A stretch of DNA of 64,000 nucleotides, taken from Dichetophora obliterata. Lineage: Eukaryota; Arthropoda; Insecta; Diptera; Sciomyzidae. Below are positions 18,216 through 60,857 of this stretch, in pieces. The DNA is taken from the NCBI GenBank assembly GCA_963920525.1, contig OY986437.1:116056715-116120714 (forward strand), in the 5' to 3' direction. A model generated the notes under the pieces. The model did not search any database, was not told where the DNA came from, and saw only the letters and a program-made list of their open reading frames with translations. The position numbers and the translations under genes were made by a program. Each line of letters starts with the position of its first letter. The stretch's first letter is position 1.

Positions 18216-18227
18216 CGCTTTTGATTT

Positions 18228-24654: not shown

Positions 24655-25117
24655 TTTCTATCCCAAGAATATGCATGTTAAGTAGACTAGGGAATGAAAG
24701 TACACTATTTTGAGGATGTAATTACTTCTTTACATTATCTTCTTTATTGTTGCATTGGCAGCCTAGGCTATTGACCAAAGTCGCATAAATTTTACCATAT
24801 AATGCTATGGTATCTTATTACCCGAATCTAATTTCCATTACGCTAGACTAATTTTAGTTTATGAAACAAAGATTTTTCAGGCATTTATATCAAGGCTTAA
24901 AAATGCAATTTAAACGATTTTAAAGATTTTTTTCTGAATGAATGGCATTAAATATAAGATAAAATTGATTTGTAAGGGTATTATTTTCTGTATCTTTTAT
25001 TGTATTCGACCCTATTCCTACTCGAGCATAGGATTTGAATAATTTTTTAATTTGCTAAATATTTTCTTTTGCATGGATTGCATTAACTCTGCCTTTCCTC
25101 TACCTTGCATGCATTTA
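24655..25117. other. Unassigned AT-rich stretch
   Basis: No gene recognised. TA at 25116-25117 is the Tc1 target duplication. Confidence 0.3.
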
Positions 25118-26735
25118 CAGTTAGGGAATAAAGTCTTCATACACCCCCTAAAAACCAAAAAAATGCTGAATGAAAATAATAACAATATATGTTTTAGTGA
25201 TAAAATGATTTAATTTAATTTTTATAAGTGTACAAAAACAAACATTTTAATTTCTTTCAAAACACAACTTTATAGACAAGAAAAACTTAAAATAAAAGGG
25301 GAAAAAAGTGTTCATACAGTTAAAATATTTTTTTTAAAAAAGATGAAATAACTTATTTTTGAATATTTTCCAGCGAAGTTAATATTTTGTCGGTCCACCA
25401 TTAGCATCAATGACAGCCTGCAGACGTCTTGGCATTGATGCAACTAGATTATCGGTTGTGCTGGGAGTAATTTCCGACCAGGCTCTTTGCAAAGCTTGTT
25501 TCAAAGTTTCCTTGCTGGTAATGTTGGCTTGAGCGATTTTTCGTTTTAAAACATCCCAAACGTGTTCTATGGGGTTTAAGTCCGGTGATTGGGGAGGGGA
25601 ATTCAACTGCCTTGGTGCATAATATAGCAACCAATCTCTGACAATGTGCGCTGTATGTTTGGGATCGTTGTCCTGTTGGAAAATCCAATGCTGGCCAAGA
25701 CCCAATATATCAACTGATGGTTGCAAATTATCTTCTAAAAGCTGTTTATAATAGTATCGATCCATAATACCGTCTATAAACACCAACCGGCCAACCCCAG
25801 ACGTCGATATGGCTCCCCAAGCCATTACGTTGCCACCACCATGTTTCACTGTGGGAACAATATTATTCAGTTCAAGTGCTGTATTTTTTTTTCGCCAAAT
25901 CTTTCCGCGGCCATCATTTCCAAATAAATTAAATTTACTTTCGTCTGTAAATAAAACGTTTTTCCAGAAATCCATTCCTTTGTTTAGATGCTTATTTGCA
26001 AATTCCAGGCGAAGTCTCCTATTTTTCTCGGATATTAAAGGTTTTCTACGGGGAACTCTGCTTGCGTATCCGTTTGCCCGTAACGCATTTCGTACAGTTT
26101 TGGGATGTACTGTCTTGGACGAAGTGTTAGCGATCCTTTCTGCTATTTTTGGGGCTGTGATTCTTGGATTTGACTTAACTTCTTTTAAAATAAGGCTTAC
26201 ATCACGTCTGGAGAGTTTCTTTGGGCGTCCTGACCTCGGCTTATTTTCGACGGAACCAGTATTTTTATATTTATTGATTATATATTGGACCGTAGCAAAA
26301 GGCACATTTAACAATTTGCTAATTTCGCTATAGGATTTGCCTTTTTTATGCTCTTGCACAATTAAATTTTTAATTTCAAGGCTTATTTCTTTGCGCGCAC
26401 TCATCTTGAACACTTGATCACTAATGATGCCAACTAATGATGCAATAAACACGTGCCCTTCTTGCAATGCAAAAACTAACGGTATTTCAACAGTTAAAAT
26501 GCGCTGTTTATGAGTGAAATAAAAAATATTTGAACTGTATGAACACTTTTTTCCCTCTTCATTTTTAGTTTTTTTGTCTATAAAGTTATTTTTTGAGAGA
26601 CATGGAAATTTTTGTTTTTGTACACTAATAGAAGTGCAATGAGATCATTTCAGCATTAATATTTTGTTTGTAACTTATTTCGTTCAGCAGTGTTTTGGGT
26701 TTCAGGGGGTGTATGAAGACTTTATTCCCTAACTG
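25118..26735 (-). mobile_element. Complete Tc1-like transposon (1618 bp) with IR-DR ends
   Basis: TIRs start CAGTTAGGGAATAAAGTCTT and are identical for about 32 bp, flanked by TA (25116-25117 and 26736-26737). Similarity resumes near 25299-25335 and 26525-26560 with GTGTTCATACAGTT-type motifs, so each end is about 215 bp. Each carries two copies of TTCATACA in the same direction, like the IR-DR architecture of Sleeping Beauty/Minos-type elements. It encodes one uninterrupted transposase. Closely matching TIRs and an open frame suggest recent arrival. Confidence 0.95.
25379..26404 (-). CDS. Tc1-like transposase, DD34E, intact (341 aa)
   Basis: The enzyme cuts the element out and inserts it at TA. 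I start it at MSARKEISLE (ATG complement at 26402-26404) rather than the ATG 21 codons upstream, because 341 aa and this N-terminus match the family. Residues 1-55 form the first helix-turn-helix (SYSEISKLLNVPFATVQYI). GRPKKL at 59-64 is an AT-hook-like linker. Residues 65-115 form the second HTH. The catalytic triad is D154 (FTDESKF), D245 (QQDNDPKH) and E280 (SPDLNPIEHVW) with exactly 34 residues between the last two. No stop or frameshift is visible, so activity is plausible but untested. Confidence 0.95.
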   Translation of the reverse strand: MSARKEISLEIKNLIVQEHKKGKSYSEISKLLNVPFATVQYIINKYKNTGSVENKPRSGRPKKLSRRDVSLILKEVKSNPRITAPKIAERIANTSSKTVHPKTVRNALRANGYASRVPRRKPLISEKNRRLRLEFANKHLNKGMDFWKNVLFTDESKFNLFGNDGRGKIWRKKNTALELNNIVPTVKHGGGNVMAWGAISTSGVGRLVFIDGIMDRYYYKQLLEDNLQPSVDILGLGQHWIFQQDNDPKHTAHIVRDWLLYYAPRQLNSPPQSPDLNPIEHVWDVLKRKIAQANITSKETLKQALQRAWSEITPSTTDNLVASMPRRLQAVIDANGGPTKY

Positions 26736-27035
26736 TATATCATCATTATCGTAAATAATCACCAAACTATAGCTAATAATAATAAAAATAAATATTTCTG
26801 CAAAGATACTTTCACAACTTTACTTAAAGAAGCAATGCCTCGAGCATATATTTCTTTTCAGTCACAGTGTTTCCGTGCCTGATTTTCATTGAAAAAAAGT
26901 AGCACAAATAAAAATTTTTTCTTAAGAGCTTTTCATTTCTAAGTTATTTTGAAAAAAGAAAATTTCTTTTTGATTACTTTTCAGTTTTTTATATGAAAAA
27001 TTTGCTTTACTTAAGAGCTGGAAACAGGCCTTTAT
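26736..27035. other. Unassigned AT-rich stretch
   Basis: Between the Tc1 element and the duplicated repeat; nothing recognisable. Confidence 0.3.
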
Positions 27036-28260
27036 ACAGTAAAAGAGAATAATTCTGTTTTTTTATTTATATTTTTCAAAACTATTTTAAAGCGTTTCAT
27101 ATTCTAAATAAAAATTATTTAAAAACAAACTTGTTGTTGTTGTCCTTCTTCAAACTTACCTGATCTAAAAAGATCACAATTAAATTCATGTAAAAATTTG
27201 TTTTGTTTTGTAAAATGTTTTCGTTTGATATTTTTGGTGATGAATTTGTTGTTCTTGTTCATTTGTTTTGTTCGTTAAAACTTAATGTTATTCAAAGTTA
27301 TGTTTAATAAATGGAAAAAATATGGGTAAATTTGAATTATTTATTTTTCCTGTAGTAATGAGCATAGTAATGAACATATATGTATATTTTAAAAGTATTC
27401 GTGGTATTTTTATTAGCCCTTAGGAATTTTCTTTTTGGGAATTCCTATTAAATTTTTTAAATCAGCGTGGTATTTTTTAATGGGAGTGGGAATTCAGTGG
27501 GGTATTTTTTGAAATTCCGTGGGAGTTTGATAATATTGTTCTTAAAATTTTTTTTCTTTTTTAGTAAGCAAAATTTCTTTGTGGTATTTCTAAATGTTTT
27601 TTTTAAATTATTTGTGCATATGGGACTTATTGTGGAATATTTTAATGCGAATGAGATTTTTGTGGTAATTTTAAATGCATATGGAATTTGTGGTAGTATT
27701 TTTAAAACGCTTGGTATTTTTGTGGTAATTTTTAATGATCGTGGGATTTTTTTATACTGTTTTATTGCGGTAGAAACTTTTTGTTTTATCTTTACTATGG
27801 TAATTTTTGTTGTATTTAATTTATGTTACTGTCAAAAAGGGAACTTATTGTCGGAATTGTTTTAAATTTTAACTGGCAGCCTTGGCTAGCAATAGTACAT
27901 TTTTTTGAAGCCACATACTGGCAAGCGCGTCGGAAGCTAATTTCATCTGGGGGGGCAGTACAAATGGGGGGGCAGTACAAATGGTGGTGCAAAAAAAGTT
28001 CACCAAAATTTCTTCAAAGAAACATGAATGTGAATAAACAAATTTTTTATTTTAGTTTAAAATAAAAAAATTTATAAAAATATATAAAAAATATTAAAAT
28101 TTCATTATTTTTAAAAGTTCTTCCAATTTCAATATTAGAGATCAAGGATCTTTCATATGGTAATATGAAAATATAAGAAATAATGGTTGCTTTTATAAAG
28201 CAAGACTAGGCATATCTTTACATGGTTTAAATGCAATAAGGTACAAAAAGTTATATCAAT

Positions 28261-28560
28261 TTAAATTATTCCAAAATGTTTCTTTCTGTCCTTGCGAGAA
28301 ACAAACTCTTTCACCACCTCCATCGAATTCAATTCTTCGGTTTTATCTTTGTGAATGTGTATAAGTGCTGCATGAGTGAGTCGTTTCTGTGTCATAGTTG
28401 CTCGAAGATACGTCTTAAGTCGTCTTAGTGCACTAAAAGAACGCTCAGATGAAGCTGCTGATGCAGGCACAGTCAAAAGCAAAGCAATAAGTTTTTCAAC
28501 TTCATTTAATAGTTTTTTTACAGTATCCGAATTTTTCGCAAATTGGGATACAATGCCACT
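28261..28560 (-). pseudogene. hAT transposase C-terminal dimerisation domain
   Basis: On the minus strand the frame reads KKLLNEVEKLIALLLTVPAS, then ASSERSFSALRRLKTYLRAT and QKRLTHAALIHIHKD. ASSERxFS-(10 or so)-LR-x-TM-x-RL is the signature of the hAT dimerisation region, closest to the ZMYM1-like group of hATs. The catalytic RNase H part upstream is not readable, so this is a 3' remnant. It lies inside the element at 27923-30176, in the orientation expected. Confidence 0.85.
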
Positions 28561-28748
28561 ACAATTTCAAGGTGTTTGGCCAGGCAATTGCTTCAGCAAT
28601 TTCATCTGCATAAAGATCTAGTTTTGTTTTTAGATTTTGTTCAGAAGGCACTTTTCCGTTGAAGGCTTCGATTACAATATTTTCCAACGATTCCAGAGTG
28701 TCAAGATCTGCTTAAATGTACAATAAGATTTACAAAGTGCCACTTTAC

Positions 28749-28813
28749 ACTAACTTCACTCAACCGACTCACCGAATGTTAAATCAAAGTGAATCGGTTG
28801 AGTGAAGCTGGTA
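28749..28813. repeat. Hairpin
   Basis: ACTTCACTCAACCGACTCACC pairs with the GAATCGGTTGAGTGAAG segment about 25 bp downstream. Confidence 0.5.
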
Positions 28814-29298
28814 TGAATAAAAAAAAAGTCAAATATCAACCTGTTTGATCAAATCTAGCCGTTATCTCATTTGAGAGAAGATCAAAAATTTCGAAATAAT
28901 CTTTTCGTAGCCGATCATATAATGGTAACTATACTGAAGGAACCGGATTTGATGTTTGTTCAAAGCGTCGAGGTGGATTTTCATCAGCTTATTTACAGTA
29001 GGGGCTTTCGCATGGTCCAAAACATTGGACCAACATGGCAGATTGTACAACATGTAGTACCATGCGTAAGCTAAAACGAAAGTCGAAATTTTAGGTTTTT
29101 TTCTGCCGATTGTACAATATTGTAAAATTACTGCTCAATTGTTAGGGCATTTAAAAGTTGCTCAGCTATTAGCCGGATGTGTTCTGCTTGAGAGCTTGCA
29201 ATTAATGATGTTGCTTTACAAGTTGGATCGTTCGAACGCTCAATCAAATAGTCCCATTAGTTTTCCATCTAACTTATCGTACAACATGTCGTCCAATA

Positions 29299-29828
29299 AG
29301 TGCTGTTCACATTTCAAACCGCTCATCAAATCATTTGTCAAATCGTTTGACCACAGAAGTGTTCTGACTCTTCAAATTTTTCGTCAAATTTTATTTTTTC
29401 TTGAACACCGAAGTAAGCACATCGCGATGACGGAAAAATTTTAATACTTTTTGTTATTAAAATCGTATTGGAAGAAGAAGAAATTATTTTATAAATTTTT
29501 ATAAATTGTTTGCAACAGTTATTTATTATTATTTTGATATTATTTTCTTCCGCTCCTTCTTTTGCCGCGATGTGCACAGGTTGAAAACTTTTTTGAACTG
29601 ACAAAATCGTACTACACGATTTGACTAGTGTGAACACTCGTCAAATCGTTCGGCAAATCAGCAGAAAAATCAAAAAATTTTGATTTTCATCAAACGATTT
29701 GACCAACGATTTGATAAGTGTTCACACTCGTCAAATCGCCATCAAATCCATACAAATTCTGTTGGTCAAATCAATTGTCAAATCATTTGATGATCGATTT
29801 GATGGCGGTTTGAAATGTGAACAGCCCT
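29299..29828. mobile_element. GGGCTGTTCACA MITE, full copy (about 530 bp)
   Basis: Inverted ends AGTGCTGTTCACATTTCAAA and, on the other strand, AGGGCTGTTCACATTTCA, followed by several CATCAAATC / GTCAAATCG motifs in both arms. Flanks are ATA on both sides, tentative. Nested in the hAT element. A truncated copy lies at 18228-18486. Confidence 0.65.
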
Positions 29829-30185
29829 ATATGGAAAGCCCCTAAGAACATGTCAAATTTTTTCTTACCAGAGTTGCAAATTAACAAGCATTAAGCTACA
29901 TACTTAAGGGTGCTTTTAAACTGAAGTGGTGGGTTTGCAATAGAAACTCTAGATTTTGTTCTATATTTTTGCAAACACAGAGAAAGAAAATGGCTATCCG
30001 CACGCATGCTTATGAAGAAGAGAGAAAGAAGAGGAAAATATATACTACAAAAATATTATTGTTGTAAAAAAACTGATATTTTGAATAACTTTTGAAGTTT
30101 TCCTTTTAAATTGTTTATCTAGCTAAAAAAGTGGGGGGGCAACTGCCCCCCTTTTCCCCCCCTTCCGACGCCAATGCATACTGGC

Positions 30186-30350
30186 TCTCTAGCTACATGC
30201 ATCTGCATTCTCTATTGTATTACAACCCAACAAGCCATAAATGTCACTGTTTCAGCTAAACGGTACTTGAAACGGCAGCGTCTGATTTGGTGGTATGAAA
30301 ACGGCATGTGTTTGTACCTTTAAACCGTTCTCTATATAATTGTAAAGTCC
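30186..30350 (-). pseudogene. Unknown coding relic shared by the two repeat copies (copy 1)
   Basis: Reads LYNYIENGLKVQTHAVFIPP, then TLPFQVPFS, a stop in place of Trp, and LLGCNTIENADACS. It aligns codon by codon with 37866-38040, where the Trp is intact. I do not recognise the family. Confidence 0.5.
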
Positions 30351-30846
30351 TTTTTTATGTCATATTTATGTCATGTTTTGATGTTTTCCTTTTCATATTG
30401 AATATTTTGTTGTTGTTTCTTTGGAAAAAATTTATTGTTCTAACCTGATCTTAAGCTCAATAAACGATTTTAAAGTATCAAACAACTAGAATTTGTATTT
30501 AAAATCAAATTCTAACTATCAAACATTTAGAATTTGTATTTAAATCATAGAAAATTAATATACAACTTAATAAATGGTACGCTTATATGAAACACACAAT
30601 GCATAGTTTGCTGACAACGAAACGGTCCGCTTCAGTGCTTTTAGAAGTGCACACCGATTTCAACCGAACCGATTGGTTATCTGGGAATCGAAATAAAATT
30701 TAAGCAACTGATGTGGATTTATATATGTATATTTTACATATATATTAATAAAAACAACAACAACAACAAGAACAAAAGCAGCACAACAAGGAACAAAAAC
30801 AACAACAACCTTAAAAACAGCATAAGCAGCTACTGCAGCTAAGCAT

Positions 30847-33305: not shown

Positions 33306-34767
33306 GTAAACCATCAATAAAAAATTAAATATTTTCGAAATGTGAAAATTTGAAATTCCGGTTGTTTTTGTTACATTTTTTTATTTGAAAGCTCATTTTA
33401 AAAAAAAATTCAATGAAAAACTAGGTGCATAAAGCTAAAGAAAATATTGGGTATTTTTATTACTGTGAAATAAAGGAATAGAAATGCTGATTAGGACTCA
33501 AGAAAAAATTATTTCAAAATTACAACCCATACAAACAAAAAACCCATACAAATAAGGCACCTCTAATACTTGTGTATCCAAACGCATAATCGTTTCACAC
33601 CAACATGAATTTGAGTAAAATCAATACTTAAAGCGTCTGTGTGGATACGCTTCGCTATACCGGATACGGAAACGATTCACTTCTGTTGACGTGCGGAAAT
33701 GAAATTTAAATGTATGCCAAGTTGTTAAACGCCGTTGTGAGAATTAATTTTTGTATTTTTTTTTTTTTTTTTTTTTTGTAACCTATGCCAATAGCTTTGC
33801 ATAATTTTTCTTATCTTTAAATTCAATTCGAAAACATTTCCACTGAATTGATATTCAGAAATGTTATTTTTATTTTATTTCCATTCTTGTTATTTTTATT
33901 ACTGTCTTGCACGATATAAATAAATTGACAGCAGAGTTAAGTGAATTAGAGAAAAGATTCTTCAGTTTGTTTTATTTTTTTTTATTCTGACATCTCGTTT
34001 TTATCATCAACTATTTATTAGCATGTCGAACAGGATGATATTGAATTTCTAAAATAAAATTCTATAAACACATAATAAAAAATATATGTTTGAACAGCGT
34101 ATTTTTTCTGCATTTTATTGCGATGAAGAAAATATTTCGTCTTATCGATTATATGCGCAAAGAAAAATTATCCTTATATTGAAATATCATTCTGCTTGAT
34201 TCAGGAATATGTCATATAAATATAAATTTGGTTGGATCAAGCATTAAAATTTAATTAATAGAAAATAATTTTTATTATGAGTATATAATTTATTTTCCTT
34301 TTGCATTGCATTTTGGTGACAAATTGGGCCCAACGGGCCCACCTGACTTAAGCCTACCTTAAAAAAACAAAAATAATTAATATTTTTTATCAACGAGGCG
34401 TTTATTCGAATTGAAACTAATCCCAAATGCTTCCACTACATATAAGTAGATATTACCAATGATTTAGATGAGTAAAACAAGTACTTTGTTTTAAATTGAA
34501 AGATTTCCAGTGAATAAAAGAGAAATTAAAATCATTTGATTGCTTTTAAGACGTAAGTTCATGAGTGAAACCTAAACAAAAATAATGAAAAGTAATAAAT
34601 TTCTTAAAATTCATTGAATTTTTTTAACAAAAATAAAACATAAAATGTAAGTAAAAAATCGAGTTTGATCTTCAAAAACACCATTGAATATTGCATCCAC
34701 ATAAAAAAGACACAGTTTCGATAGTATCGTAAGTATAGACGTAGAATTCCTTTTTATATACATAGTA
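33306..34767. other. Unassigned AT-rich stretch
   Basis: No gene recognised. A T-run of about 24 lies at 33755-33778. Confidence 0.35.
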
Positions 34768-35337
34768 ATACAGAAAAATTCTGATTTTTTTCGTGTATAT
34801 TCTTCAAAACTTTTATAAAGTATTTCATCTTCTAAATAAAAATTATTAAAAAATAAATTTGTTGTTTTTGTCCTTCCTTAAACTTACCTGGTGTAAAATG
34901 CTCACAATTAAATTCATGTAAAAATTTGTTTTGTTTTATAAAAAGTTTTCTTTTGATAATTATGGTGATCAATTTGTTGTTCTTTTTCATTTTTTTTTTT
35001 TTTTTTTGTTGGTTAAAACTAAATGTAATTCAAAGTTATGTTTAATTAATGGAAATAAATATGGGTAAATTTGAATTTTTTATTTTTCCTGTAGTAAAGA
35101 GCATATACATATATGTATATTTTAAAAGTAATTTAAAATTAAAATTTTAGTTAACAAAAAAAATTTTTAATATAGAAAGAATATAATGCATAATAAAAAT
35201 AGTTCGAATTTATTTTGGTATTTTAAAAATAGATGTAGTTTTTAAAGCACAACGCATGCTTAGTAATGCATGCGCAAATTAGCGTAGTAGTATACACGCT
35301 GAAAATAAACATTTGTTTTATTCGTACTCCAACTCTT

Positions 35338-35440
35338 GGCAGAATAACCAGGTAGGGTCGACTCGGAGAGGAATGAAGTAGAAAGCAGAGAAAAGCGAGC
35401 TAGTTGTCAAATACAGCTGTTCATGTTGAGTAAAAATTAA
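35338..35440 (-). mobile_element. Truncated relative of the hAT-like MITE at 19461-20197
   Basis: GGCAGAATAACCAGGTAGGG followed by GCGAGCTAGTTGTCAA matches the complement of 20096-20195. The other end is missing. Confidence 0.65.
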
Positions 35441-35585
35441 GAACATGTAAAAAAATTGCAGCTAACTGAACCAACAACAATTACCAAGCAAATCTAAAAC
35501 AACGACGCACACAGAAGAGCAAGATCACAGCGGTTGAGCAGCGTAATGAACCGAATCGTCCACAGAAAATAAAAAGAACTTTGCT

Positions 35586-35842
35586 TACTATTTCCCGCTT
35601 TTCACTCGTTGCACACGAAAATTCTCGAGCTTGCGGCGAAAGCAATTATTGCCCTGGTAGCAAGATCTCTTTGTCCCGCTTTTCACTCGGCAATAATTGC
35701 CTTTGCCGCAAGCAGTTTGTGGATTATTCGCCCGCATGAGGGGGTGTACGAAAGTCCCCTTTAAGCCCGAGTAGTCAACAAACTACTTGCGGCGAAAGCA
35801 ATTATTGCTCATAGAATTGCCGAGTGAAAAACGGCCCTTTGC
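35586..35842. repeat. Cluster of three interleaved hairpins around GCAATTATTGC
   Basis: CTTGCGGCGAAAGCAATTAT occurs at about 35630 and 35785, and its complement (AATAATTGCCTTTGCCGCAA) at about 35691-35711, so either flank can pair with the centre. The outer pair CCCGCTTTTCACTCG / GCCGAGTGAAAAACGG bounds the cluster. G/C content is higher than in its neighbourhood. Confidence 0.6.
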
Positions 35843-35867
35843 AGCACATGCAGAACCAAAACAACAA

Positions 35868-37302
35868 TTGGGCCTATTCTGTGGAATCTTTCATGAAAAA
35901 ATTCTGTTATTCTGTTATGATTTCCCATACAAATTTTTGAGCTGTCAAAAAATCTGTTACGAGACCAGAATTGGTATTCTGCACGACAATCTTTTATGAA
36001 ATCTGTTATAAATCATAGCAGATTTTTCGAACTGTCAAAAAATCTTTTACAAAATATTTTATTTGGTATTCTGCATGACAAAATCTGCTATGAAATCTGT
36101 TATGAAACACAACAGAATAACAGATAAATTTGTCTGCCTTTAATCAGAACGAATTTAATAAGTCAAGCTAAATCAGATTGTTTTGTGTTCCGTTATGTTT
36201 AGTTTAGTTATAAAACAAAGACTTGGAAGACTAAAAAAATAACATTAATCCGAGGTTTTTTTTTAAATTGCATATAAAATGTATTTTCTATTTTTGTACA
36301 ATCATTTATAATTTTTATAATAGGTCTTTCTTAATAAATAATTATTAATGTATGTGTAAAAAATGCAGCATAAAAAATTATATAATGTCAAGCTGACCTA
36401 TATCTAGAAAGGCATTTATTCTACTTTCTGGAATTCTAGATTTTGCTGCAGCTTTAGTTTTTAATTATGATCTCGGCGTCCACCGCCCCCACTACGAAAG
36501 GTTCCTTTGGATTTATTCTGCTGTACTATTGTAGAAATCGTTTGGTAGGATGAGCTAATTTTATCGCCAACGTGCTACATCTTTGATGTTTCCTTCGGAA
36601 TTTCCAGATATGGTTACCACCTTTGTAACCTTATCTAAATCAACGCTTACTTTATAATCAGATTGTATTGTCTGATTATTAGATCCTGCGCATCCAATAA
36701 TTATACATACACAACCAGAACGCACATCTAGTTGTTCGGTAGTCATAATTGGGTCCACCACCACCATTCCTTTGACCACGGCGATCGCGATCATCATGCT
36801 CGTCTCCCCGTTGTTCCTTACGTTTGAAACTTGCACGGGCACCTCTGTCCCTTTCGCTACCACCTTCACCATAACTGCGTCCGTCACGACCTTTATTTTA
36901 AACTTGACCTTCTGCTATCATTGTAATCGGGCTCTGGGTCGTCCTCTTAGTTCGACATTGTTTTAAAACAAGCAATTTAATCAAAACGGACATACTAGTT
37001 TGTAATGCAATTGCACGACACTTCTTTAATGCTTATTTTGCAAAAATATTTGCAATTCACACGTTAAAAGCGACAACTTTAACTTGCACTGTTTTCTTTA
37101 ATTTCTTGACAGCAATCAGCTGTTTCATAACAGAAGTTAACGGAATTGTAATAGATTTTTGTTTTCGAAGATTGATAACAGGGTACCATGAAAGATCGAA
37201 AGGCAGAATATCAATTTTAACAGATCTTTTATGGTCGGCATCTTTTACGATTCATAACAGAAAATTCACAATAGAATAACAGATTTGGCAAAATAGGCCC
37301 AA
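35868..37302. mobile_element. TIR element carrying a retrocopy (1435 bp)
   Basis: Ends TTGGGCCTATTCTG and CAAAATAGGCCCAA. Subterminal sequences on both sides are rich in repeated TCTGTTATGAAATC- and ACAGAATAAC-type motifs; on the left three related units share GAACTGTCAAAAAATCT. No clear target duplication or transposase. The centre is a reverse-transcribed gene fragment (36256-36970). Confidence 0.6.
36461..36958 (-). pseudogene. Retrocopy of a small KH-domain RNA-binding protein gene
   Basis: On the minus strand a start at 36958 reads MSN-stop-EDDPEPDYNDSRRSS, then a shifted frame gives RG-rich GRDGRSYGEGGSERDRGARA and GQRNGGGGPNYDY. Next comes RSGCVCIIIGCAGSN with IQSDYKVSVDLDK, the IIGxxG loop of a KH domain, which binds single-stranded RNA. 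A last shift gives TFRSGGGGRRDHN and TAA at 36461-36463. About 200 bp of 3' UTR-like sequence with AATAAA and a short A-run (T9 at 36256-36264 on the plus strand) follow, so this is a processed copy. Stops and frameshifts show it is dead. The parent gene is not identified. Confidence 0.55.
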
Positions 37303-37865
37303 ATACCAACAGCTAGTAGCAACGTTGCCAGTTATGTTGGAAAAATCCCATTCGTGGTAATTTTTAATTACCCTTATGAATTTTTGTTTCTAGGAATTCC
37401 TATTAAATTTTTTAATTCAGCGTGGTATTTTTAATTGGCGTGGAAATTCAGCAGAATATTATTTAAATTTCCGTGGGAGTTTGGTAATATTCTTCATACA
37501 TCTATTTTTTCTTTTTTAGTAAGAAAAGTTTCTTTGTGGTATTTCTAAATGTTTTTTAAATTGTTTGTGCATATTGTACTATATTGTACAATAAGTCATT
37601 GTAGTATTATTTAATGCGAATGAGATTTTTGTGGCTATTTTAAATGCATATGTAATTTGTGGTAATTTTTAATGACCGTGAGATTTTTTTTGATAATTTT
37701 TTTATTGCGGTAGAAACTTTTTTGTTAACATTTACAATGGTAATTTTTGTTGTATTTAATTTATGTTATTTTGAAAAAAGTAACTTATTGTCGGAATTGC
37801 TTTAAATTTTAACTGGCAACCATGGCTAGAAGTAGTACATTTTTTTGTAGCCACATGCTAGCTCT

Positions 37866-38219
37866 CTAGCTACATGCATCTGTATTCTCTATTGTATTAC
37901 AACCCAACAAGTCATGAATGTCACTGTTCCAGCTAAACGGTACTTTAAACGGCAGGGTCTGATTTGCTGGTATGAAAACGACATGTTTTTGTACCTTTAA
38001 ACCGTTCTCTATATAATTGTGAAGTCCATTTTTATATTTATCAAAAATCGAATTGAAATTTATGTCATATTCGCTTGATGTGTCTTTTGTTCTTGTCTTT
38101 TTTCCTCTCTTTTTCACCCGTTCGCCAAAAAACGCTGAAATATGCATTGAATCTTGTATTGAAATCAAGGTACTGCAGTTGAGTTGCCGTTTACTGTTTA
38201 GCAACTTAATAAAAACCAT
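37866..38219 (-). CDS. Unknown frame conserved between repeat copies (117 aa)
   Basis: Not recognised. The C-terminal half (YKNGLHNYIENGLKVQKHVV, PFSWNSDIHDLLGC, NTIENTDACS) is kept in frame in the other copy at 30186-30350 with mostly conservative changes, which suggests it was coding when the copies separated. The N-terminal half has a basic patch (KKRGKKTRTKD). It is presumably the end of a protein of the unidentified repeat. No start context or promoter is seen; a fragment is more likely than a working gene. Confidence 0.35.
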   Translation of the reverse strand: MVFIKLLNSKRQLNCSTLISIQDSMHISAFFGERVKKRGKKTRTKDTSSEYDINFNSIFDKYKNGLHNYIENGLKVQKHVVFIPANQTLPFKVPFSWNSDIHDLLGCNTIENTDACS

Positions 38220-38344
38220 TTCAAGAAAAGGTCACAATTGTTTAACAACAAATAAAATTAATAAACAACTTAAAGTTTTCTATAAGACCTTGTTATTTAT
38301 TGTGTTGATTTTCTATGATTTTAAAACAAATTCTAATTGTTTGA

Positions 38345-38650
38345 TAGTGTAAATTATTCTTGATTTTAAGTACAAATTCTAGTTGTTTGATAGTTTAAAA
38401 TCGTTTATTGAGCTTTAGGTCAGGTAAGAGCAATTTATTGCTCTAACTAGTTAATCAATCAGCTAACTAATTAATCAGCTTGTGATGTTTTTTTTTTCTT
38501 TTTATATTGAAAATGTTGCTGTAGTTTCTTTGAAAAAATTCGTTAGAGCAATTAATTGTTTTAACCTGACCTAAAGCTCAATAAACGATTTTAAACTATC
38601 AAACAACTAGAATTTGTATTTAAAATCAAGAATGATTTAAACTATCAAAC
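38345..38650. repeat. Foldback segment within repeat copy 2
   Basis: TAGTTGTTTGATAGTTTAAA and TTTATTGAGCTTTAGGTCAG pair with CTGACCTAAAGCTCAATAAA and TTTAAACTATCAAACAACTA. The middle holds AGAGCAAT/ATTGCTCT steps. The AAAGCTCA end resembles the GTT modules. Confidence 0.7.
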
Positions 38651-39013
38651 ATTTAGAATTTGTATTTAAATCATAGAAAATCAACATTAATATTCAACTT
38701 AATAAATGGTACGCTTATAGGAAACACATAATGCATAGTTTGCTGACAACGAAACGGTCCGCTTCAGTGCTTTTAAAAGTACACACCGTTTTAAACCAAG
38801 CCGATTGGCTACCTGGGAAACGAAAAAAATTAAAGCAACTGATGTGTATTTATATATATGTTTTACATATATATTAATGAAAAACAACAACAACGAAAGC
38901 AGCACAACAACGAATGACGTGATTACGAACCAAACAAGCAAACACAACAACAACCTTAAAAACAGAATAAGCAGCTACTGCAGCTAAGCAGCTTGTGCAT
39001 TTCTCATATGAAT

Positions 39014-40677
39014 ATAATTTTGGCTGCGTGCACAAGGGAGCAAAAAGATCGGTATTTTTTAATGTGCTTGCCTGTTTCTTCTTATTTGAATATCTGAAGA
39101 AATATTGCAAATTTTATGAATGAAAATAAAATTTTACAGCTTCTTATTTGCATGTGCATGGTTGCCGAGTTTATTTTGTTTCCAGTTGGACATTTTTGTT
39201 GTGATTTTGTTGTAGCTATATTTTGGTTGCTGCTGCAGACAAGGATTTTTAGATATTTCATTAGCTGAATAGAAAGACAGAATTCTGATTCGGCTAATGT
39301 AATAATTATTGGATAATAAAAAAATGTAGCAATAAATAGAATTGCTCTAGCAGTATTTAATAAATTTAAAATAAAACAAAGAAATATTGTAGATTTAATT
39401 AATGAGAATAAAAGTTATATTTGATACAAATTTTACAGGTTATTATATATATGTATGTGTGTTTTTTTCTTTCATCTTCTTTAGTTTGTTTCTAGCTGGA
39501 CATTTTCCTTGTAGCAATTTTTGCTTGCTACTTTGGATACTCAACCATAATTTTTAGATACTTCATTAGATCAATAAAAAGATGAAATTCTGATGATTCG
39601 GCTAATGAAATAATTATTAGTCAGGACTTGAAAAACATTTTTTTAACAAAAATGCTTTTAATAAATAAAATTAACTTGAATTAACAAAATACAAAATACT
39701 TGAATTAAACAAATTTCTTCAAAATCAAAGAAGAATTTATTGTATAAAGATATTCTCCGACAGACGTTGGCCATATATGTATTTTCATGCTAATCGGAAA
39801 AAAAACATTTTGTTTTCACCATTTTCAGTATAGTTGCCGAACGTATCTATATAAGCTATATTACAAAATTTTAGTCTAATACAACCAAAACCGTCCAAAA
39901 TATGACATTTTTGTTGATTTGTAGGCTGTAAAAGAGGGTGTAGTAAAATATTTTTCCCTTAAACCATCTAGAACTCAAAACAAATCGAGTGCCAAAATTT
40001 GAGCTTAATTTACTTTGTACCTATCGTTTTAATATTTTAACTGTATTAAAATGTAGAACTAATTTTAATAAAAAAATTTACGAATTTCGTAATCAATTTT
40101 TACTAACACTTTTTACAAATTTTACAAAATTTAATACTTTTTAATGCTTGTTTTAAAATTTATTCCAAGATTCCTAACCATGAAGGTAGTGTATTATTTT
40201 AAAAAATTAAGAAAAATAAAAATAAATAGAATATATGTATATTAGACTGTCTTACTTTTTCAACGTTTTTCGAAAAGTCCCCGGGACACGTTGATTTCTG
40301 ATTCTACTCTTAGAAACATGAATTTTGGTATATAACACTTTAATATTATCTAACGGTAAATAGTCGCGCAATCAGCTTTAAGGCTTTTCGGCTAAAAAAT
40401 TATATTTTCGAAAAAACAAGAAATTTTTTCTTCAGTATTTTTCATATCACTATGAAACTAATGAAACAATTTTTATCAATTTATACTTATTTAAAAGCTA
40501 ATAAAATTTTCCATCTTATGCTTTAAGAAATATTGCAATTTGTTCTGTACATTTTTTTAAAAAACTCTGCAATATGATTTTGATTAAATTTTTTTCGAAA
40601 TTTGATAACTTTAACTCACATTACCCCGCTTTACAAGATCATAAGGAAGAAGTTTTTAATTGTGTAAATTTCGTATT
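39014..40677 (+). repeat. Left arm of the large inverted repeat (1664 bp)
   Basis: Pairs with 41878-43513. Checked landmarks (39014/43513, 39781/42746, 40361/42166) have a constant position sum of 82527, so there is no net indel over at least 1.35 kb. One difference of 28 bp lies near the inner end, where this arm has an extra TTTGATAACTTTAACTCACA-type piece. The arm contains two diverged units of about 310 bp (GTTTCCAGTTGGACATT at 39178, GTTTCTAGCTGGACATT at 39488) and TTTTCATGCTAATCGG at 39783. Confidence 0.95.
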
Positions 40678-41877
40678 AAAAAAAAATACATTTTAATAAG
40701 TATACTTACCACAGTTCTTCATCACGAACCTTTTATAATTATTTAAGTTGAAATACAATTGCCATCAAAGACATATTATGCAATTTATTTTAATGTAGAT
40801 ATTCTTTATTTAAATAAATGTATGTAAACTACTACTACTTACTACTTACTTTACCGAAATTTAGTAAGTTTTTATTTTGGTATTTCAAAATCAGAGTAGT
40901 CGCCGCCTTAATATAATTCAAAGTAGTTCATAAACAACATTATTTTAAATAAGTTTTTTAATTAGTTGTTTTTAAAAACAAGGTAGTTTGTTTCTAGTTT
41001 TTCAAAAATAAAAATAAAAAAATATATCAAAAATAAGAAAAGGAGAGTTTTTCAAAAATACATGTACAAATACATATATTTAGTTTACCAGTAACTGCCT
41101 ACATAAAATTATTTTAAATCACTATTTAAACAACAATTTTTTTTGAAAATGTACTTTTTTCATATTGATTATCCTTCAACTACAACTACAAACTACAAAA
41201 GCCAAAATTCGAATAAAAAAATTATTGAGTGTAGAGTAAATATATATTTGACCATTTTGCAAATGATATGGTGCAAGACTATTTGCACTGGATTGTGAAT
41301 AGCCCTAATATGTTTTCAGTATTACGATGCACTGTTTTGCATTTTAATGTTATTTTTTTGTTGTTATACAGCTTTTCTGCTATGAGTTGGCCTTTGACAC
41401 CTTCGCTGGCTTAACTATAATATACAGTTTTTCAATATTTTTTCTTGTTAGGAACTTATTAAGATGCATCCTTCCTTGTGGAGTACGAATAAAAATTTTT
41501 TGGAAATAAAATAATTTTTAAAAATGTAACAATTTTAAATGATCCAGCAGAAAGAATGATATGACTTCTAAATATGGTAAATAATACGTGGACAATGGAT
41601 CCAGGACAGCAAAATTGTGTTATCCAAGTAATTGAACATTACAATAAAAATCATCCTGACAGCAGAAAACGTACAATACTTCGCAACTTAAACTAATGTC
41701 GTATAATTTTGTTTCTTATAGTTACTTACATAAATACTTATGTAGCTACGTTTAAAAAAAATAAAATTGAATTTTTTTTTAAAAAACTCCTTGTGCAGTT
41801 GTGTTTTATTTTAATAAAAATACCATATCATATGTCTTCAAATTGTACATGAAAATTTTTTTTGTAAAATTTTTCAA
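40678..41877. other. Spacer of the large inverted repeat (1200 bp)
   Basis: Unique AT-rich sequence with a run of TACTACT/TACTTACT motifs near 40832. A frame near 41600-41696 reads IQVIEHYNKNHPDSRKRTIL followed by a stop and may be a protein relic. No terminal repeats mark its edges. Confidence 0.5.
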
Positions 41878-43513
41878 AATACGAAATTTACATTATTAAA
41901 AACTTCTTCCTTATGATCTTGTAAAGTTTCGAAAAAAATTTAATCAAAATCACATTGCAGAGTTTTTTAAAAAAATGTACAGAACAAATTGCAATGTTTC
42001 TTAAAGCATAAGATGGAAAATTTTATTAGCTTTTAAATAAGTATAAATTGATAAAAATTGTTTCATTAGTTTCATAGTGATATGAAAAATACTGAAGAAA
42101 AAATTTCTTGTTTTTTCGAAAATATAATTTTTTAGCCGAAAAGCCTTAAAGCTGATTGCGCGACTATTTACCGTTAGATAATATTAAAGTGTTATATACC
42201 AAAATTCATGTTTCTAAGAGTAGAATCAGAAATCAACGTGTCCCGGGGACTTTTCGAAAAACGTTGAAAAAGTAAGACAGTCTAATATACATATATTCTA
42301 TTTATTTTTATTTTTCTTAATTTTTTAAAATAATACACTACCTTCATGGTTAGGAATCTTGGAATAAATTTTAAAACAAGCATTAAAAAGTATTAAATTT
42401 TGTAAAATTTGTAAAAAGTGTTAGTAAAAATTGATTACGAAATTCGTAAATTTTTTTATTAAAATTAGTTCTACATTTTAATACAGTTAAAATATTAAAA
42501 CGATAGGTACAAAGTAAATTAAGCTCAAATTTTGGCACTCGATTTGTTTTGAGTTCTAGATGGTTTAAGGGAAAAATATTTTACTACACCCTCTTTTACA
42601 GCCTACAAATCAACAAAAATGTCATATTTTGGACGGTTTTGGTTGTATTAGACTAAAATTTTGTAATATAGCTTATATAGATACGTTCGGCAACTATACT
42701 GAAAATGGTGAAAACAAAATGTTTTTTTTCCGATTAGCATGAAAATACATATATGGCCAACGTCTGTCGGAGAATATCTTTATACAATAAATTCTTCTTT
42801 GATTTTGAAGAAATTTGTTTAATTCAAGTATTTTGTATTTTGTTAATTCAAGTTAATTTTATTTATTAAAAGCATTTTTGTTAAAAAAATGTTTTTCAAG
42901 TCCTGACTAATAATTATTTCATTAGCCGAATCATCAGAATTTCATCTTTTTATTGATCTAATGAAGTATCTAAAAATTATGGTTGAGTATCCAAAGTAGC
43001 AAGCAAAAATTGCTACAAGGAAAATGTCCAGCTAGAAACAAACTAAAGAAGATGAAAGAAAAAAACACACATACATATATATAATAACCTGTAAAATTTG
43101 TATCAAATATAACTTTTATTCTCATTAATTAAATCTACAATATTTCTTTGTTTTATTTTAAATTTATTAAATACTGCTAGAGCAATTCTATTTATTGCTA
43201 CATTTTTTTATTATCCAATAATTATTACATTAGCCGAATCAGAATTCTGTCTTTCTATTCAGCTAATGAAATATCTAAAAATCCTTGTCTGCAGCAGCAA
43301 CCAAAATATAGCTACAACAAAATCACAACAAAAATGTCCAACTGGAAACAAAATAAACTCGGCAACCATGCACATGCAAATAAGAAGCTGTAAAATTTTA
43401 TTTTCATTCATAAAATTTGCAATATTTCTTCAGATATTCAAATAAGAAGAAACAGGCAAGCACATTAAAAAATACCGATCTTTTTGCTCCCTTGTGCACG
43501 CAGCCAAAATTAT
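41878..43513 (-). repeat. Right arm of the large inverted repeat (1636 bp)
   Basis: Near-identical complement of 39014-40677. The outer border is sharp: ATAATTTTGGCTGCG matches, then the flanks diverge at once. No target duplication is evident at the outer edges. Confidence 0.95.
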
Positions 43514-46500
43514 CAAAATATAGAAAACAAAATGTAAACAAACTCGCACTTTTGAAGGGGTATAAAATAAATGTCCCATCAAAATACCCTATCCTGTCGA
43601 TGGATGGCTAATATCGGCGAGTAAAAAATAACGAGCGACGAGTGAAATCTCTTATAGATATATACTCGTTGCCTTCAAGTCTTGACGAGTATAAACCAGG
43701 ACTATGCACAGTTGTTGTTACTGTTGTCTTTTTCAAAAATTACTTGAGATGCTTCACGCATTTCTAACGTTTTTTATAAGCGAGGACAAGATTGAAAGAG
43801 ATCAATTTAGAAGAGAGTTTTTTAAAAAGAGTGTGAGAGAATTTGGCTCTTTCAAATAAAACTATGTCAAATGTAGCAAATCTATTGCCAGCAGAAATTG
43901 CTGTAATTCCCGTGAATTTTTGTTAGAGTGCTTACCATAGTATAATTATTACAAAGTAGTAGCGACAATTTTTGCTGCGGTCAACGTATGTCAATCAAAA
44001 TAAAAGCAAAACGAGAGCATGCTATGGCCGCTGATGCAAAATTGAGATATCAAAAAGTTTTGTGTCACACAAAGAAAATAAATATATAAATTTCTTGTAA
44101 GTTTACAAAAGTAGCTCGTGAGAAAATAAGTAGTTTCATAAATAAGTAGATTCATTAAATAAGGCTACCTAATAAATAATTTTACCTACTAAATTAAATT
44201 AAATTGCTTACTAAAACAAAACTCAGATATTTATTCATTTTTTATTTTGTTGATAAATTATTAAAAAAAAAATAGGTTATTAAAAACTTTTGAGTTTCGT
44301 ATTTTTCAATAAACCACTTTTTAAATTTTGAAAAATATTTGACAACAATAATTGTTAAATAAGGATACAAAGATTTTTTTGCTCCTTCTATTTACTCGTT
44401 TAAAAAAACAGTTTTGTCGACCATAAAAAGCCAACTCTTGTAACTACGTCTATGTGGCTATAAAAACAACAGCAACTACAACGCCATCACAACATTGACA
44501 ACGGCGAAAAAAACAACAAAATTAAAACAAAAAACCTACAGAAACACGCAAGGATTCACGACCGCAACGAACTCCATGGGACATTCGAGAGTGCGTTGCA
44601 ACAGACTGCAACACATGAGGTCAACTTTTGGGCGATGACGACTACGCTGATAATGATGATGCAACAGAGACACATTAAAAGCCACACTTAAATGCCGACC
44701 AACTCTCATGTCTGCAAACGAGCAGGATAACTGGCAAAAAGGATAACACTAACTGTTTGATAGCACAGTCTTATATGAAGGCACGTGCCCATATGTTGTG
44801 GAACATATGGTCGAGCAAGAATCAGTTTTTTTATTAAAGCACTCCCGTAGCTCTAAAAGAGAGATAGTGAGAAAACCGAGAGCAGGGACGAAGGAGGCGG
44901 ATCATCAAATACGTGTTCTACGAACCGTGAAAGTCACAAATTATACGATCGCATTCCATGATAGCAGAAATTTAGCAAAAGTGTATAAAAAAAGAAGCAA
45001 TGTAAGTTGAAATGAGCTCCCTTAACGAATGCAGCAATCCTTAACTAGCACGAAGCAACTTTACACTTCAAAAAATTTAGATGTTACTATAATTGAACAT
45101 TAAAAAAAATAAGAGCGTAAATTAAGTAGGGAGTTTGGCTTTATTTGGGGGAGTTTGGCTTTGTCGAAAAAAATTTCACATTTTTTCGAATCGAATCTAG
45201 AGCATTTAAAATACACTTCCTGGTTGAAGGACTTGCATAAAATCCAAAATCATCGCCAATTTTTACCTGTTGGCCCAAAAAAACTGGTTTTTGGAGTATT
45301 CAAAAATCGTGGGGAGTTGTGTAGCAAGACTAAAAATCGCAGAAATTTGAATTTTTTGGTGCAAATTTTTTATTGGGATCGGAGAAAATGATAAATTATT
45401 ATGACTATTATGTCATGTTATGAGTTAAGAAAATGGAAAAAAGTTAAAATTTTTAGTTAACGCTATTCGGAGTATCGTCATTACTAACCTGGGTGTAATC
45501 AACCCATAAATTTTAATTTATGAATTTGTAAAAAAGAACGCTAAAACAGTAAAATGGATTTATTTTTATTAATTTCGTATATTTAATTATTCTATTAAAC
45601 ATAAAATTCGTCCATTGTAATTAATATTTAATTTTAATAAAAATATATCAAAAAAGCGTTAATTAGAGAACTAAAAAAATATCATAATGATTTGGATAAT
45701 TTCACATTCCGAGGTCAAATTATTTGCCACATTCTTCGAGAGGGCCAATTTGAAAAGCTAAAAGATGTATTAAAAAAAATTATCTACGTTATTTTTTTTT
45801 TGTGCAAAGAAAATTTTTTTAAATAATTACCTCTAATTATTCGTTTTAATTGAAACATAAGTCTCTCATGGCACAGCAGCGCAAGCATCATAGATAAGCG
45901 ACTAGCACTTAGAATAAATGTCGATTATGCAAAACTTCGTCACATAGTCAAAATAAAACGATCAAAAGATTTCTTGGTCAAAGAATTATACAATTTCACA
46001 CTTGTTTTGCCAAATCGTCAAATGCATAGAAGAATACGCCGAAATCAAAATTAAAAATAACTTCTATGTTTATCTATCAAGAGATGCATTTCTGTTTTTA
46101 TCTGAGCATAGCCATGCATTGCCATGTTGTGCATAATCAGATGCACGCAAATCCACAGATTTCTATGTTAAACTAATTAAGCCATATCTAATTTGATCAT
46201 TACAAAAGTAAGTGAATGATGCAATAATTGCTTATTATGACAAAAACCCTGATGCTAGTCCTAAACCCAAATGGCTAGTCAAATACAATAGAATAATGTT
46301 GAATGTTCCGTTAAAATTACAACAAGAAATTCGACCATTTGCACTGGGCTAAAACTAAATTCAGTGTTAAAGATGAGATGAGATCTTGCAAGTACAAACA
46401 CGTCCGCATTCTAAAAAATTTTTTCTATTGATTTACATAACGTGATGAAATCGTCGAAGCTGTTTAAGTCGAGCAAAGGTTTAAATCTTCAATTTGAATT

Positions 46501-53141: not shown

Positions 53142-54285
53142 TATGTATACTTTATAAAAAAACCACGAAATATGAAATAAAAGATAGAAGGAAGATTGTT
53201 TGAAACATTCATAGCTGTTTCACATTTTGTAAATTAAAGTCATTAAATTTTTAACAAAATTTGTTAGTTCTATAATACAGTTTTTTCCATGTAATTTTTA
53301 AAAGAAGCTACTTTTTCCTATAAGTCTTCAATATCCATGTCGCTTTTAAGACTAAACTTAGAAAATCGTAGTGATTTCCATTGTTTTTCCAGCTCAGCAG
53401 GGTTGTTTTTTCGTAGCACACAAGTTCGATAACATTGAAAAAGGCCGACAATTTTAATACATTTTTGTAATTGCCAAAAAAAAGAGTATCCCTTAACGTA
53501 GAGTAAGGGATCCTTTTTTCTGTTTTGTTTCGTCAGTGCAAAAATTTACCAAAATGGAATTAAATTTCATTTTTTCATATCAAAAAAATTTTTTACCAAA
53601 TTTTTTTAAAATTTTCACATTTTAGCAACGCTGCTTAGAATTGGTAGGAAAAAAATTCTAAAAGAACAATGATTTTTTTGTAACTTCACCCTGGTCTATG
53701 GTTTCTCAAAATTTCAGAAACATAAAGTTGATTCTTCTCTCAAGATATGGATAAATAAAATCATTTCCGAGATTTTATATCGTACATTTCGCTAAGTGTA
53801 GCAGAGTGACATACGGTAGTGACTGATCCTGCGCTCATGATAATGTTGTGATCCATATATTATATTTAGTCCTGCGCTTCTTCTTTGTGTGACTCTTCTT
53901 TGACTTGTATACCTCTTCTTTTTTTTTTTGTTATTGTTAATGCTTCAACCTATGTTAGTTGAATTGAGGTTTTGGCTACTTGCTTCTTGGTTAGGGTTTA
54001 GAACATAATTGGCCGTTGTTGTTGGTGTTGTTATATGTTTTTTCATTCATTTCATTAAGGATTCTACTTCATTTTCTTATAGAGGGGGATGATGTTGATG
54101 TTGATGTATCGCGTGCTATTCACGTGCCAGTTGGTCACTTTTTTGTTCGCAACTATTGTTGTTTTTGAACAGTTTCAAAGCATTGTCTTTGCCAGAAGTT
54201 GAGTCAGATCTGCAAAGCTTGCTAGGAAACAGTTTCTTTTAGACATTCAAGCGGTGAAGAGGTTCGCGGATAATAAGAGAGAAAG
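53142..54285. other. 5' flanking region of cato
   Basis: No transposon ends are recognised in the last 900 bp before the gene, unlike almost everywhere else in the window, so this may be retained regulatory DNA. It includes GATGTTGATGTTGATGT (54090) and the E-boxes listed separately. Confidence 0.45.
54121..54134 (+). promoter_or_regulatory. Pair of E-boxes upstream of cato
   Basis: CACGTG (54121-54126) and CAGTTG (54129-54134), 160 bp before the start codon. bHLH proteins bind CANNTG; proneural genes are often auto- or cross-regulated. By sequence alone these could be chance. Confidence 0.25.
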
Positions 54286-55185
54286 ATGAGTTTGCTGCAC
54301 AGTAGCTATAGATACGACATTAAATTTGAGCAATATCAAGCTCAAAGTATACAACAACAACAACAACAACAGCTTGGGAGAAAACATGAGAAGGCTGCCT
54401 CATTTTCGGATTTTCCATACACATCCGAGGAGGATAACAGCACACTATACTTGGGTAGTCCTAGTTATCAAAATGCAACGATGACCAGCAGCAACAACAA
54501 TAACAACAACAATATCAATTCCATTTTAGTCGACTCCAACTGGACGCTCCACTCCTATCAATTACCAATGAATGTGGATACAAACTTTTATAAAATCAGC
54601 CATCGTTATGAAGCAGATATGGGACAAAGAGTGGGACACAAAAATAATGCGACGCCATCACTGTCATCATCATCGTCATTGTCATTGTCAACATCACCAG
54701 CATTATCTGCACTTTCATCCTCGACATTGTCGGTGCATTCAACAAAAACAACCAAGCCAACAACAACAATAGCAAAAACCACGCAATTGCCTCCGTATTC
54801 CACACCTTCCAGGCGTCTAGCTAGCAAACGCGCCTCATGCAACCCGTCAACTAGTGCCACAAGGAAGAAGAGAAAAAGTTCTATAGAGAACACAGAAACC
54901 ACTCCTCTCAGCCCGACGGTGGTCAAAAAGCGTCGCCAAGCTGCTAATGCGCGTGAGCGCAAACGTATGAATGGTCTAAACGACGCTTTCGATCGTCTAC
55001 GTGACGTCGTACCCGTCCCAGCCATCGATCAGAAGCTGTCCAAATACGAAACCCTCCAAATGGCGCAAGCCTACATCATTGCTCTGTGCGAACTACTCGA
55101 AAATGCTACGGCCGATGAGTCCAGCTTTACGCTATTTGGCGATAGTGGTTTTGGTCATAATTTCAACAGCATTAGTTTGCAGTGA
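54286..55185 (+). CDS. cato: Atonal-family bHLH proneural transcription factor, cato-like (299 aa)
   Basis: A nuclear DNA-binding protein that pairs with Daughterless at E-boxes and, in Drosophila, acts in sensory neuron development. The bHLH is at residues 216-271: basic [13 protein letters not shown] (216-228), helix 1 to about 243, a loop with PAIDQKLSK, and helix 2 [18 protein letters not shown] (254-271). The RKRMNGLN basic region and ID-QKLSK loop point to cato rather than atonal or amos. A short tail ([12 protein letters not shown]) follows. The N-terminal 210 residues are low complexity: Q7 near residue 23, an N run at 69-76, long S/T stretches and a basic patch RKKRKSS. An in-frame TAA 12 bp upstream fixes the start. 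No intron is needed, as usual for the family. The length well exceeds what I recall for the fly protein (about 190 aa), due to the N-terminus. Confidence 0.88.
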
Positions 55186-57470: not shown

Positions 57471-58230
57471 AGCTTTTTATTCAAAAATGGAGGTCAAGTT
57501 CGAAAATGAGCCCATACAAAGTGGCTTAACCAAAACCGTAGATTCCACAAAAATACTAATCTAATGACTTCAATTTTTGCACATTAGCTTGAACCATTAA
57601 TATCAACTTTGAGTATGAAATTTTAAGCAATCGGATGGAAACCACGTCTACCTCATATAAAAATTGACTTAGTCAAAACGTTTAAATCTCTTTCAATTCA
57701 ACAAAGATTAATCTAATCACTTAAAATTTCACGCATAAGCTTTAGACCTTAAGATGCATTTTGAGTATGAAATTTGTAAAAGTCGTATAAAAATCACGTC
57801 TACCTACCACACAAAGTGAGTTTACCAAAACGGTAAAATTTCTTTCAATTTCGCAAAAATTAACCTTATGACTTCAAATTTTGCACATAAGCTTAACAAT
57901 CAATATATACTTTAAGTATGAAATTTGGAAGAATCGAACGAAAACTACGGCTACCTCCCAAACAATGTTTATTTATCAAAAGCGCAAAATCTCTTTCAAT
58001 TCCGCAAAAACTCATCTAATGACTTTAAATTTTAACTATACACTCGATGTTTGAAATTGAAAAAAAAAAACTGAAAATACAAAAACACGTAATCATAATA
58101 GTAAAACCTTTTTAAATTCCAAAAACAATTAATGTTTGAACTTGATGTTGTACACCAAAGCTTAAGCTTTAATAAATAAATGGACTGTCAGTTTCAAATG
58201 TGAAATATTTGGATAAAAATCGAGACTAAT
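57471..58230. repeat. Degenerate tandem array, unit about 152 bp
   Basis: CTAATGACTTCAAWTTTTGC recurs at 57561, 57713, 57865 and 58016. Each unit also carries GAGTATGAAATT and CTCTTTCAATTC. The array directly abuts the TIR element on its left, and its units share AAAACCGTA/AAAACGG motifs. Confidence 0.8.
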
Positions 58231-59796: not shown

Positions 59797-60857
59797 CTGT
59801 AGCGACATGCATTAATTGCAACAGCAAAAAAAAAACAAATACGTTGGTTTCTACCGTTTTCCCAAGGAAAAAATTACTTGTAAGCAATGGGAGATTTTTT
59901 GTCGGCAAAATGTCGACACTGCCACGGCAAGAATCTGGAGATCATTTTCTGCCTGAAGACTTCGAAAGAAGGCTCCAAGTTGAAATGGTTAAGTACTTCT
60001 ACATTTCCACGTAAATATTTTTTTTAAAAATGTTATGATAGGTTTTGGCAAAGCTATGCGCTTAAAGCCGGGCCCTGTCCCAACAGTTATGACCAAGGAG
60101 GTGCAGCCAGCAAATTCAGAACGATGTCAGCGAATTTTAAAGGGCGAAAACAAAAAAATCGTTAGTGCTCTGCTTCAGGAGTTGTTGGCCACGGAAAAAG
60201 TGCGGCGGCGCGAAGAAGAAGTTTTTCCTTTAGAGGAAATAGAAAAAGATAACATGGACGCTTCTGTTTCTAACCGCTCTTCACAGTAGTTACTTCAAGC
60301 GAAAATAAGGCAGCTAGAGTCGCAAGCGTAAGTACAATTTAACAATTTTATGAATTCAATATTTTTAATCTTTTCCTTGCAGTGAAGAGCTGAAAAGAGA
60401 AAATTTTTCATTGCGTCAAGCTGCCATAAAGCATGAAAAAGGAATGCGTGGAATGCAACAACACGCTGAGAAAGGTTTCCCAGAAACTGTGGAGGACAAG
60501 AATTTGGACGAAGGAAACGATGACGACGAATTAAATGATTTGGAATACGACGGTTTGGAAAACCTCGCAGGATACATCTACCACAAATTGCACAGAGATG
60601 TTCCGAACATAAGGGTAGAAGAAGGAGCGGCAGCATCATTTAGTTGGGTAGATCATTTAAGTGAGGGCGGCTTGTCTAAGCCAACGGAAGAACTCATGGC
60701 TCATATGAGGGCGTTGGAAAAAGTGTTCAACGACGTAAATGGCGAAGGGCTGCTAATAAGCAAAAATTATTTGCAGACGCACATTACAAGTGCAGAGGAT
60801 GTTATGTGTGACAACAAAATAAAAAATTTTTTCCGCGCACGAATGTTTTTAAAATAA
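59797..60857 (+). pseudogene. P-like transposase, internally deleted: THAP finger, coiled coil, C-terminal block
   Basis: About 59800-59985 encodes a THAP zinc finger over two frames: CINCNSKKK, YRFPKEKITCKQWEIFCRQN, then SGDHFLPEDFERR (the usual Cys of CGDHF is lost by a shift). After a possible short intron (about 59988-60041) comes LKPGPVPTV, the LKPxAVP motif that ends THAP domains. A stop (60287-60289) interrupts a helix continuing LLQAKIRQLES. A GTAAGT...TTGCAG intron (60328-60382) joins in frame to EELKRENFSLRQAAIKHEKG. The catalytic core is then missing, and the block with LAGYIYHKLH, SWVDHLSEGGLSKPTEELM and NFFRARMFLK resembles the C-terminus of THAP9/P-type transposases. Non-functional as a transposase. 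Confidence 0.7.
60328..60382 (+). other. Intron in the THAP pseudogene
   Basis: Starts GTAAGTACAA and ends TTTTCCTTGCAG; joining restores the coiled-coil frame with a split GC|T Ala codon. At 55 bp it is a normal dipteran intron size, showing that this is genomic DNA descent and not a retrocopy. Confidence 0.6.

Follow-up and report, generated by a model that had tools for sequence, protein, structure and literature searches.

A 4.5-kb inverted repeat with exactly identical outer arms in Dichetophora obliterata, a candidate foldback-like element

What kind of structure sets two near-identical arms in opposite orientation around a non-coding middle, and what keeps the arms so alike? The question is raised by positions 39014-43513 of a stretch of 64,000 bases (no N, 32% GC) from the fly Dichetophora obliterata, referred to here as the window. 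An earlier note on this DNA had offered three readings, namely a recent giant foldback element, an arm pair kept alike by gene conversion and a source of long hairpin RNA. The foldback anatomy and the homogenisation of the arms are supported by the analysis; the word ‘recent’ is not. The feature itself is real, visually striking and of an already known kind. It is given a little better than an even chance of being a non-autonomous foldback-like DNA element of ~4.5 kb with gene conversion from arm to arm; in this best reading, ‘foldback-like’ is a label by anatomy rather than a proven membership, and transposition is presumed.

Arms, tandem units and spacer

When positions 38001-45000 were compared with the window by BLAST, the two arms paired over 1,672 columns with 7 mismatches and one 28-bp gap (97.9% identity, or 1,637/1,644 = 99.6% with the gap excluded). 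This self-alignment, proposed earlier as a check, confirmed the coordinates and arm length first reported as well as the constant coordinate sum (39014 + 43513 = 82527), and the spacer, put at about 1.2 kb, measures 1,184 bp. An exact-match scan of the 64-kb window further found that the outer 1,517 bp of one arm are the exact reverse complement of the other (Table 1). Such a pairing greatly exceeds anything expected by chance: the runner-up among exact inverted matches is 106 bp long. The GC content of the arms is 23-26% (~25%) and that of the spacer is similar, and the mirror likeness stops abruptly at 39014 and 43513, beyond which the flanks are unrelated. The window also has a smaller inverted repeat at 21172-21427 / 21670-21925 (256-bp arms, 97.7% identity, 242-bp spacer) and a relative of it at 11104-11313. 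This is a further foldback- or MITE-like structure and has no relation to the giant arms.

Table 1. Coordinates of the inverted repeat and its parts in the window
Feature	Position	Strand	Basis
Left arm of inverted repeat	39014..40685	+	reverse complement of 41870-43513
Right arm of inverted repeat	41870..43513	-	BLAST pairing with left arm
Left arm, exactly identical outer part	39014..40530	+	exact-match scan
Right arm, exactly identical outer part	41997..43513	-	exact-match scan
Left arm tip, 83 bp, precedes first tandem unit	39014..39096	+	self-alignment
Left arm tandem unit 1, 282 bp, mirrored in exactly identical right arm	39097..39378	+	self-alignment
Left arm tandem unit 2, 330 bp	39379..39708	+	self-alignment
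Arm piece of 34 bp common to dispersed repeat at 18162-18195 and 63332-63364, 91%	39770..39803	+	
Left arm inner edge, holds every arm difference	40531..40685	+	BLAST and exact-match scan
Spacer (middle domain), 24.7% GC, no Pfam domain found	40686..41869	.	

The arm plan comprises a short tip, two adjoining degenerate tandem units of ~300 bp and an inner domain of ~1 kb. The self-alignment of the arm paired 39097-39402 with 39379-39708 (345 columns, 63% identity, with an E value of 1.7e-24 for this search); the units join at 39378/39379, and their local alignment score of 235 compares with a maximum of 140.5 in 200 shuffles. A scan for adjoining blocks of this size found 3 of 422 window positions that reach at least the score of the pair (229): two block starts, 5251 and 5401, belong to another repeat cluster and the third, 57451, to a tandem array, and the four next-ranked rows are the giant arms themselves. 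The internal duplications of ~310 bp, previously likened to those of Foldback and Galileo arms, are thus real as units of 282 and 330 bp, and at ~63% identity they are old and degenerate. Among the other repeats of the window, direct and inverted copies cluster at 2207-3091 and 5067-5919 (90-98%), and the tandem array occupies 57542-58033 (period 152, 3.2 copies, 73% matches).

Differences between the arms and homogenisation

All 7 substitutions and the 28-bp indel are confined to the inner 155 bp. Single substitutions are located at 40531 and 40574 and an adjacent pair at 40661-40662, while the remaining three fall in the last alignment columns, where two aligners disagree. The 28-bp segment, correctly placed near the spacer by the earlier note, is carried at 40601-40628 by the left arm and is absent from the right arm; since by inspection it is not a tandem copy of neighbouring sequence, a deletion in the right arm is suggested. 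If four differences were independent and randomly placed, the chance of all of them falling in the inner 155 bp would be ~7e-5. Likewise, an inner rate of 3.1% follows from counting 4 of the 7 substitutions over 127 bp; the outer 1,517 bp should then hold ~48 differences, and 0 are seen.

Since the differences are all clustered at the inner edge, homogenisation of the outer arms probably followed some initial divergence. Either conversion equalised the outer arms once they had started to differ, or the inner edge has another history. The proposal that gene conversion keeps the arms alike gains support from this arrangement, in which a long exact stretch adjoins a diverged edge. The proposed recent age gains none, because clustered differences bar the reading of arm identity as age; judging from where they fall, the identity of the outer arms would date the last conversion and not the element.

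Exact arms could also be yielded by polishing read-through or an assembly error, which counts against the foldback-like reading. Whole-genome amplification and missed SMRTbell adaptors are described as creating artificial inverted repeats (PMC6218980), and the difference-bearing inner zone is near short-read length, as if reads anchored in the unique spacer had kept real differences that polishing erased elsewhere. However, polishing should also spare differences beside the outer unique flanks, where there are none, and a fold-back read would keep mirroring the left flank, whereas the mirror ends at the arm tips; in addition, the existence of two genuinely separate arms is shown by the indel and the substitutions. 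An artefact is judged improbable, whether its source were a missed adaptor, a palindromic chimera among the reads or the equalising of arms by polishing.

Boundaries, coding content and other copies

Target duplications of 4-12 bp were sought with offsets of -3 to +8 relative to the arm tip and a score of length minus 3 per mismatch, and none was above random flanks, in agreement with the first impression that no obvious duplication is present. Candidates were short or imperfect, and the best score was matched by 5,000/5,000 random flank pairs because AATT in the tip alone yields it; this palindromic AATT was rejected as a 4-bp duplication, being an automatic consequence of the inverted repeat. 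On the left, the flanking sequence 38481-38990 duplicates a repeat also present at 30369-30845; the repeat ends at 38990, 23 bp short of the arm, and its second copy at 30845. An empty site was sought by joining both flanks and comparing them with the window, but the left-flank repeat stops before the arm and no match crossed the joint beyond 2 bp, which made the test uninformative. The large repeat concerned has two copies (27033-30845 and 34757-38990) made of collinear blocks (79-93%) with different insertions, and a hAT dimerisation remnant (28264-28566) lies within a gap of the first copy.

Within the 64-kb window there is no second copy of arm, spacer or tip, and the 23-bp tip motif at 39018-39040 is confined to the two tips even when as many as 3 mismatches are allowed. 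The only window matches of the arm below E 1e-5 outside the locus are 33-34 bp of a dispersed 180-bp repeat found at 18049-18226 and 63301-63478 (92% alike); apart from this piece the arms are unlike the other repeats, as had been claimed, and further matches are AT-rich, at E 3e-4 and weaker. Other mobile elements are present as well. A Tc1-type element at 25113-26740 has inverted repeats (25113-25333 / 26521-26740, 82%) and a transposase frame on the minus strand (25382-26644, 421 aa from stop to stop) with Pfam HTH and DDE domains. An open frame at 60369-60854 (+) matches the Pfam P-element transposase C-terminal domain (E 1.7e-4, at the curated cut-off); of its 44 protein relatives, those with names come from Rhagoletis and Bactrocera, and the frame is read as a remnant of a P-superfamily element. 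The flanks of this remnant, 17 kb from the arms, share with them only the 33-bp dispersed piece.

Searches for coding content covered the spacer in six forced frames (two of them minus their last residues) and the left arm in a single forward frame of the six. Neither matched any Pfam family at E up to 10, and these frames showed no transposase domain. A 40-aa open stretch in the spacer had two matches, below cut-off, and the 110-aa open frame of the arm had no protein relative at E up to 10 among 15 candidates. The likeness of a spacer peptide to a MADF motif, seen by eye, had no Pfam support. There was no Rfam match in the window at gathering scores, and the arm tip and an inner arm motif each had 0 matches in viral contigs. 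An exact 20-bp match of the tip in a Streptomyces contig, the sole one in prokaryote genomes, was taken as chance. The window also includes an open frame with a bHLH domain at 54277-55182 (+), a gene of the cato/atonal group. Among the best 120 of its 370 relatives, the top named one is from Teleopsis dalmanni (42% over 87%), tephritids follow at 38-41% over 77-88%, Drosophila and calyptrate records of cato (cousin of atonal) are included and other insects are lower. This pattern points to a higher fly as the host, with no very close relative in the protein collection searched.

These results bear on two further explanations. In the first, the locus would be a local inverted duplication of non-transposon origin, a 1.65-kb AT-rich stretch having been reverse-copied nearby by template switching during repair or replication, with later conversion of its outer part. 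The lack of a target duplication, of a second copy in the window and of a coding domain in the scanned parts is consistent with such an event, as is an arm GC content resembling that of the spacer, but tandem units that begin 83 bp inside the outer ends have the layout of foldback arms and are found at few places in the window, and this origin is considered rather unlikely. In the second, a transcript would fold into a 1.6-kb duplex from which Dicer-2 would cut 21-nt siRNAs against a gene or transposon sharing arm sequence, a role compatible with a transposon origin. The arm geometry would suit such a hairpin RNA (hpRNA) locus and the arm does hold its piece of a dispersed repeat; moreover, some Drosophila simulans hpRNAs are reported with near-perfect arms, and one with transposon-homologous arms (PMC10317233). 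On the other side, no target was seen, the one arm frame scanned has no Pfam domain and the 110-aa open frame of the arm had no relative among its 15 candidates. An hpRNA function is held to be very improbable, and less probable again is a young hairpin-RNA gene whose 1.5-kb exact arms would be selected as a perfect Dicer-2 substrate, silencing a selfish element or gene not seen in the window.

The foldback-like reading and known systems

The reading as a non-autonomous foldback-like element is supported by the exact outer arms, the restriction of all differences to the inner edge, the tandem units near the outer end and the failure of the scanned frames to show any recognised coding domain. 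Long terminal inverted repeats bound the whole structure and tandem repeats lie within them, so the foldback-like anatomy first proposed is borne out. Against the reading are the absence from the window of a second copy, the failure to find a transposase and the lack of a target duplication above random, whereas Tetris and Galileo copies carry them. Because it shows neither the fixed-length duplication of Tetris (8-10 bp) nor the 7-bp one of Galileo, the locus is not assigned to either. Exact identity is also not general, since the longest Galileo arm pair described is merely 95.2% alike (PMC3573991). As proposed, the element would consist of two long arms separated by a non-coding middle, each arm running from a tip through two degenerate tandem units into a longer inner domain; it would be mobilised by a transposase made elsewhere, and its arms would pair with each other, with repair copying at least the outer 1.5 kb from one arm to the other.

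If the locus is of this kind, a fly beyond the well-studied species contributes a long-armed example, which also makes a clear case against dating insertions by arm identity, the sole divergence surviving beside the spacer. Such long arms have been linked to natural chromosome inversions in Drosophila (PMC2775673). One locus alone alters no general view. Among the papers listed by a literature search on foldback elements and Tephritidae, the one that names Tephritidae makes no mention of foldback, which is no proof of absence in print.

One of the closest known systems is Tetris of Drosophila virilis and D. americana. Its arms are described as reaching 1,735 bp and as divided into a flanking domain, tandem units of ~220 bp and an inner domain, around a non-coding middle, in a report that also discusses independent origins of the foldback structure (PMC4079207). 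Arm length is similar and the modular order of outer piece, tandem units, inner domain and non-coding middle is shared; in contrast to the ~220-bp units and outer flanking domain of up to 866 bp in Tetris, the corresponding parts here measure ~300 bp and 83 bp. The target duplications given for Tetris (8-9 bp for the three complete copies, 9-10 bp for rearranged copies; PMC4079207) have no counterpart above random here, and the likeness considered is one of anatomy.

Galileo, a P-superfamily element of Drosophila, similarly has long, internally repetitive arms, within-copy identity above 99% in some copies and long-armed copies described as lacking a transposase frame (PMC2775673, PMC4168063, PMC3573991). 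In two of its copies, 1 and 2, the arms are reported as >99% identical within the copy and ~7% apart between copies (PMC2775673). Its longest recorded arms, of 1,260 and 1,241 bp, each contain a pair of tandem units, and in the authors' proposal long arms are attractive sites for recombination and conversion (PMC3573991). The arms described here are longer, no transposase was found, the target duplications of Galileo (typically 7 bp, 8 bp in a few copies) are lacking, and the likeness considered is one of arm anatomy.

The hpRNA loci of Drosophila simulans resemble the present one as long inverted repeats with very similar arms (PMC10317233). They differ in that the present locus has no known target homology and is known from sequence alone. 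The palindromes of mammalian sex chromosomes are far longer than this locus and hold genes. Their arm identity is kept high by arm-to-arm conversion (PMC3723533), the same process that would account for the exact outer arms in D. obliterata.
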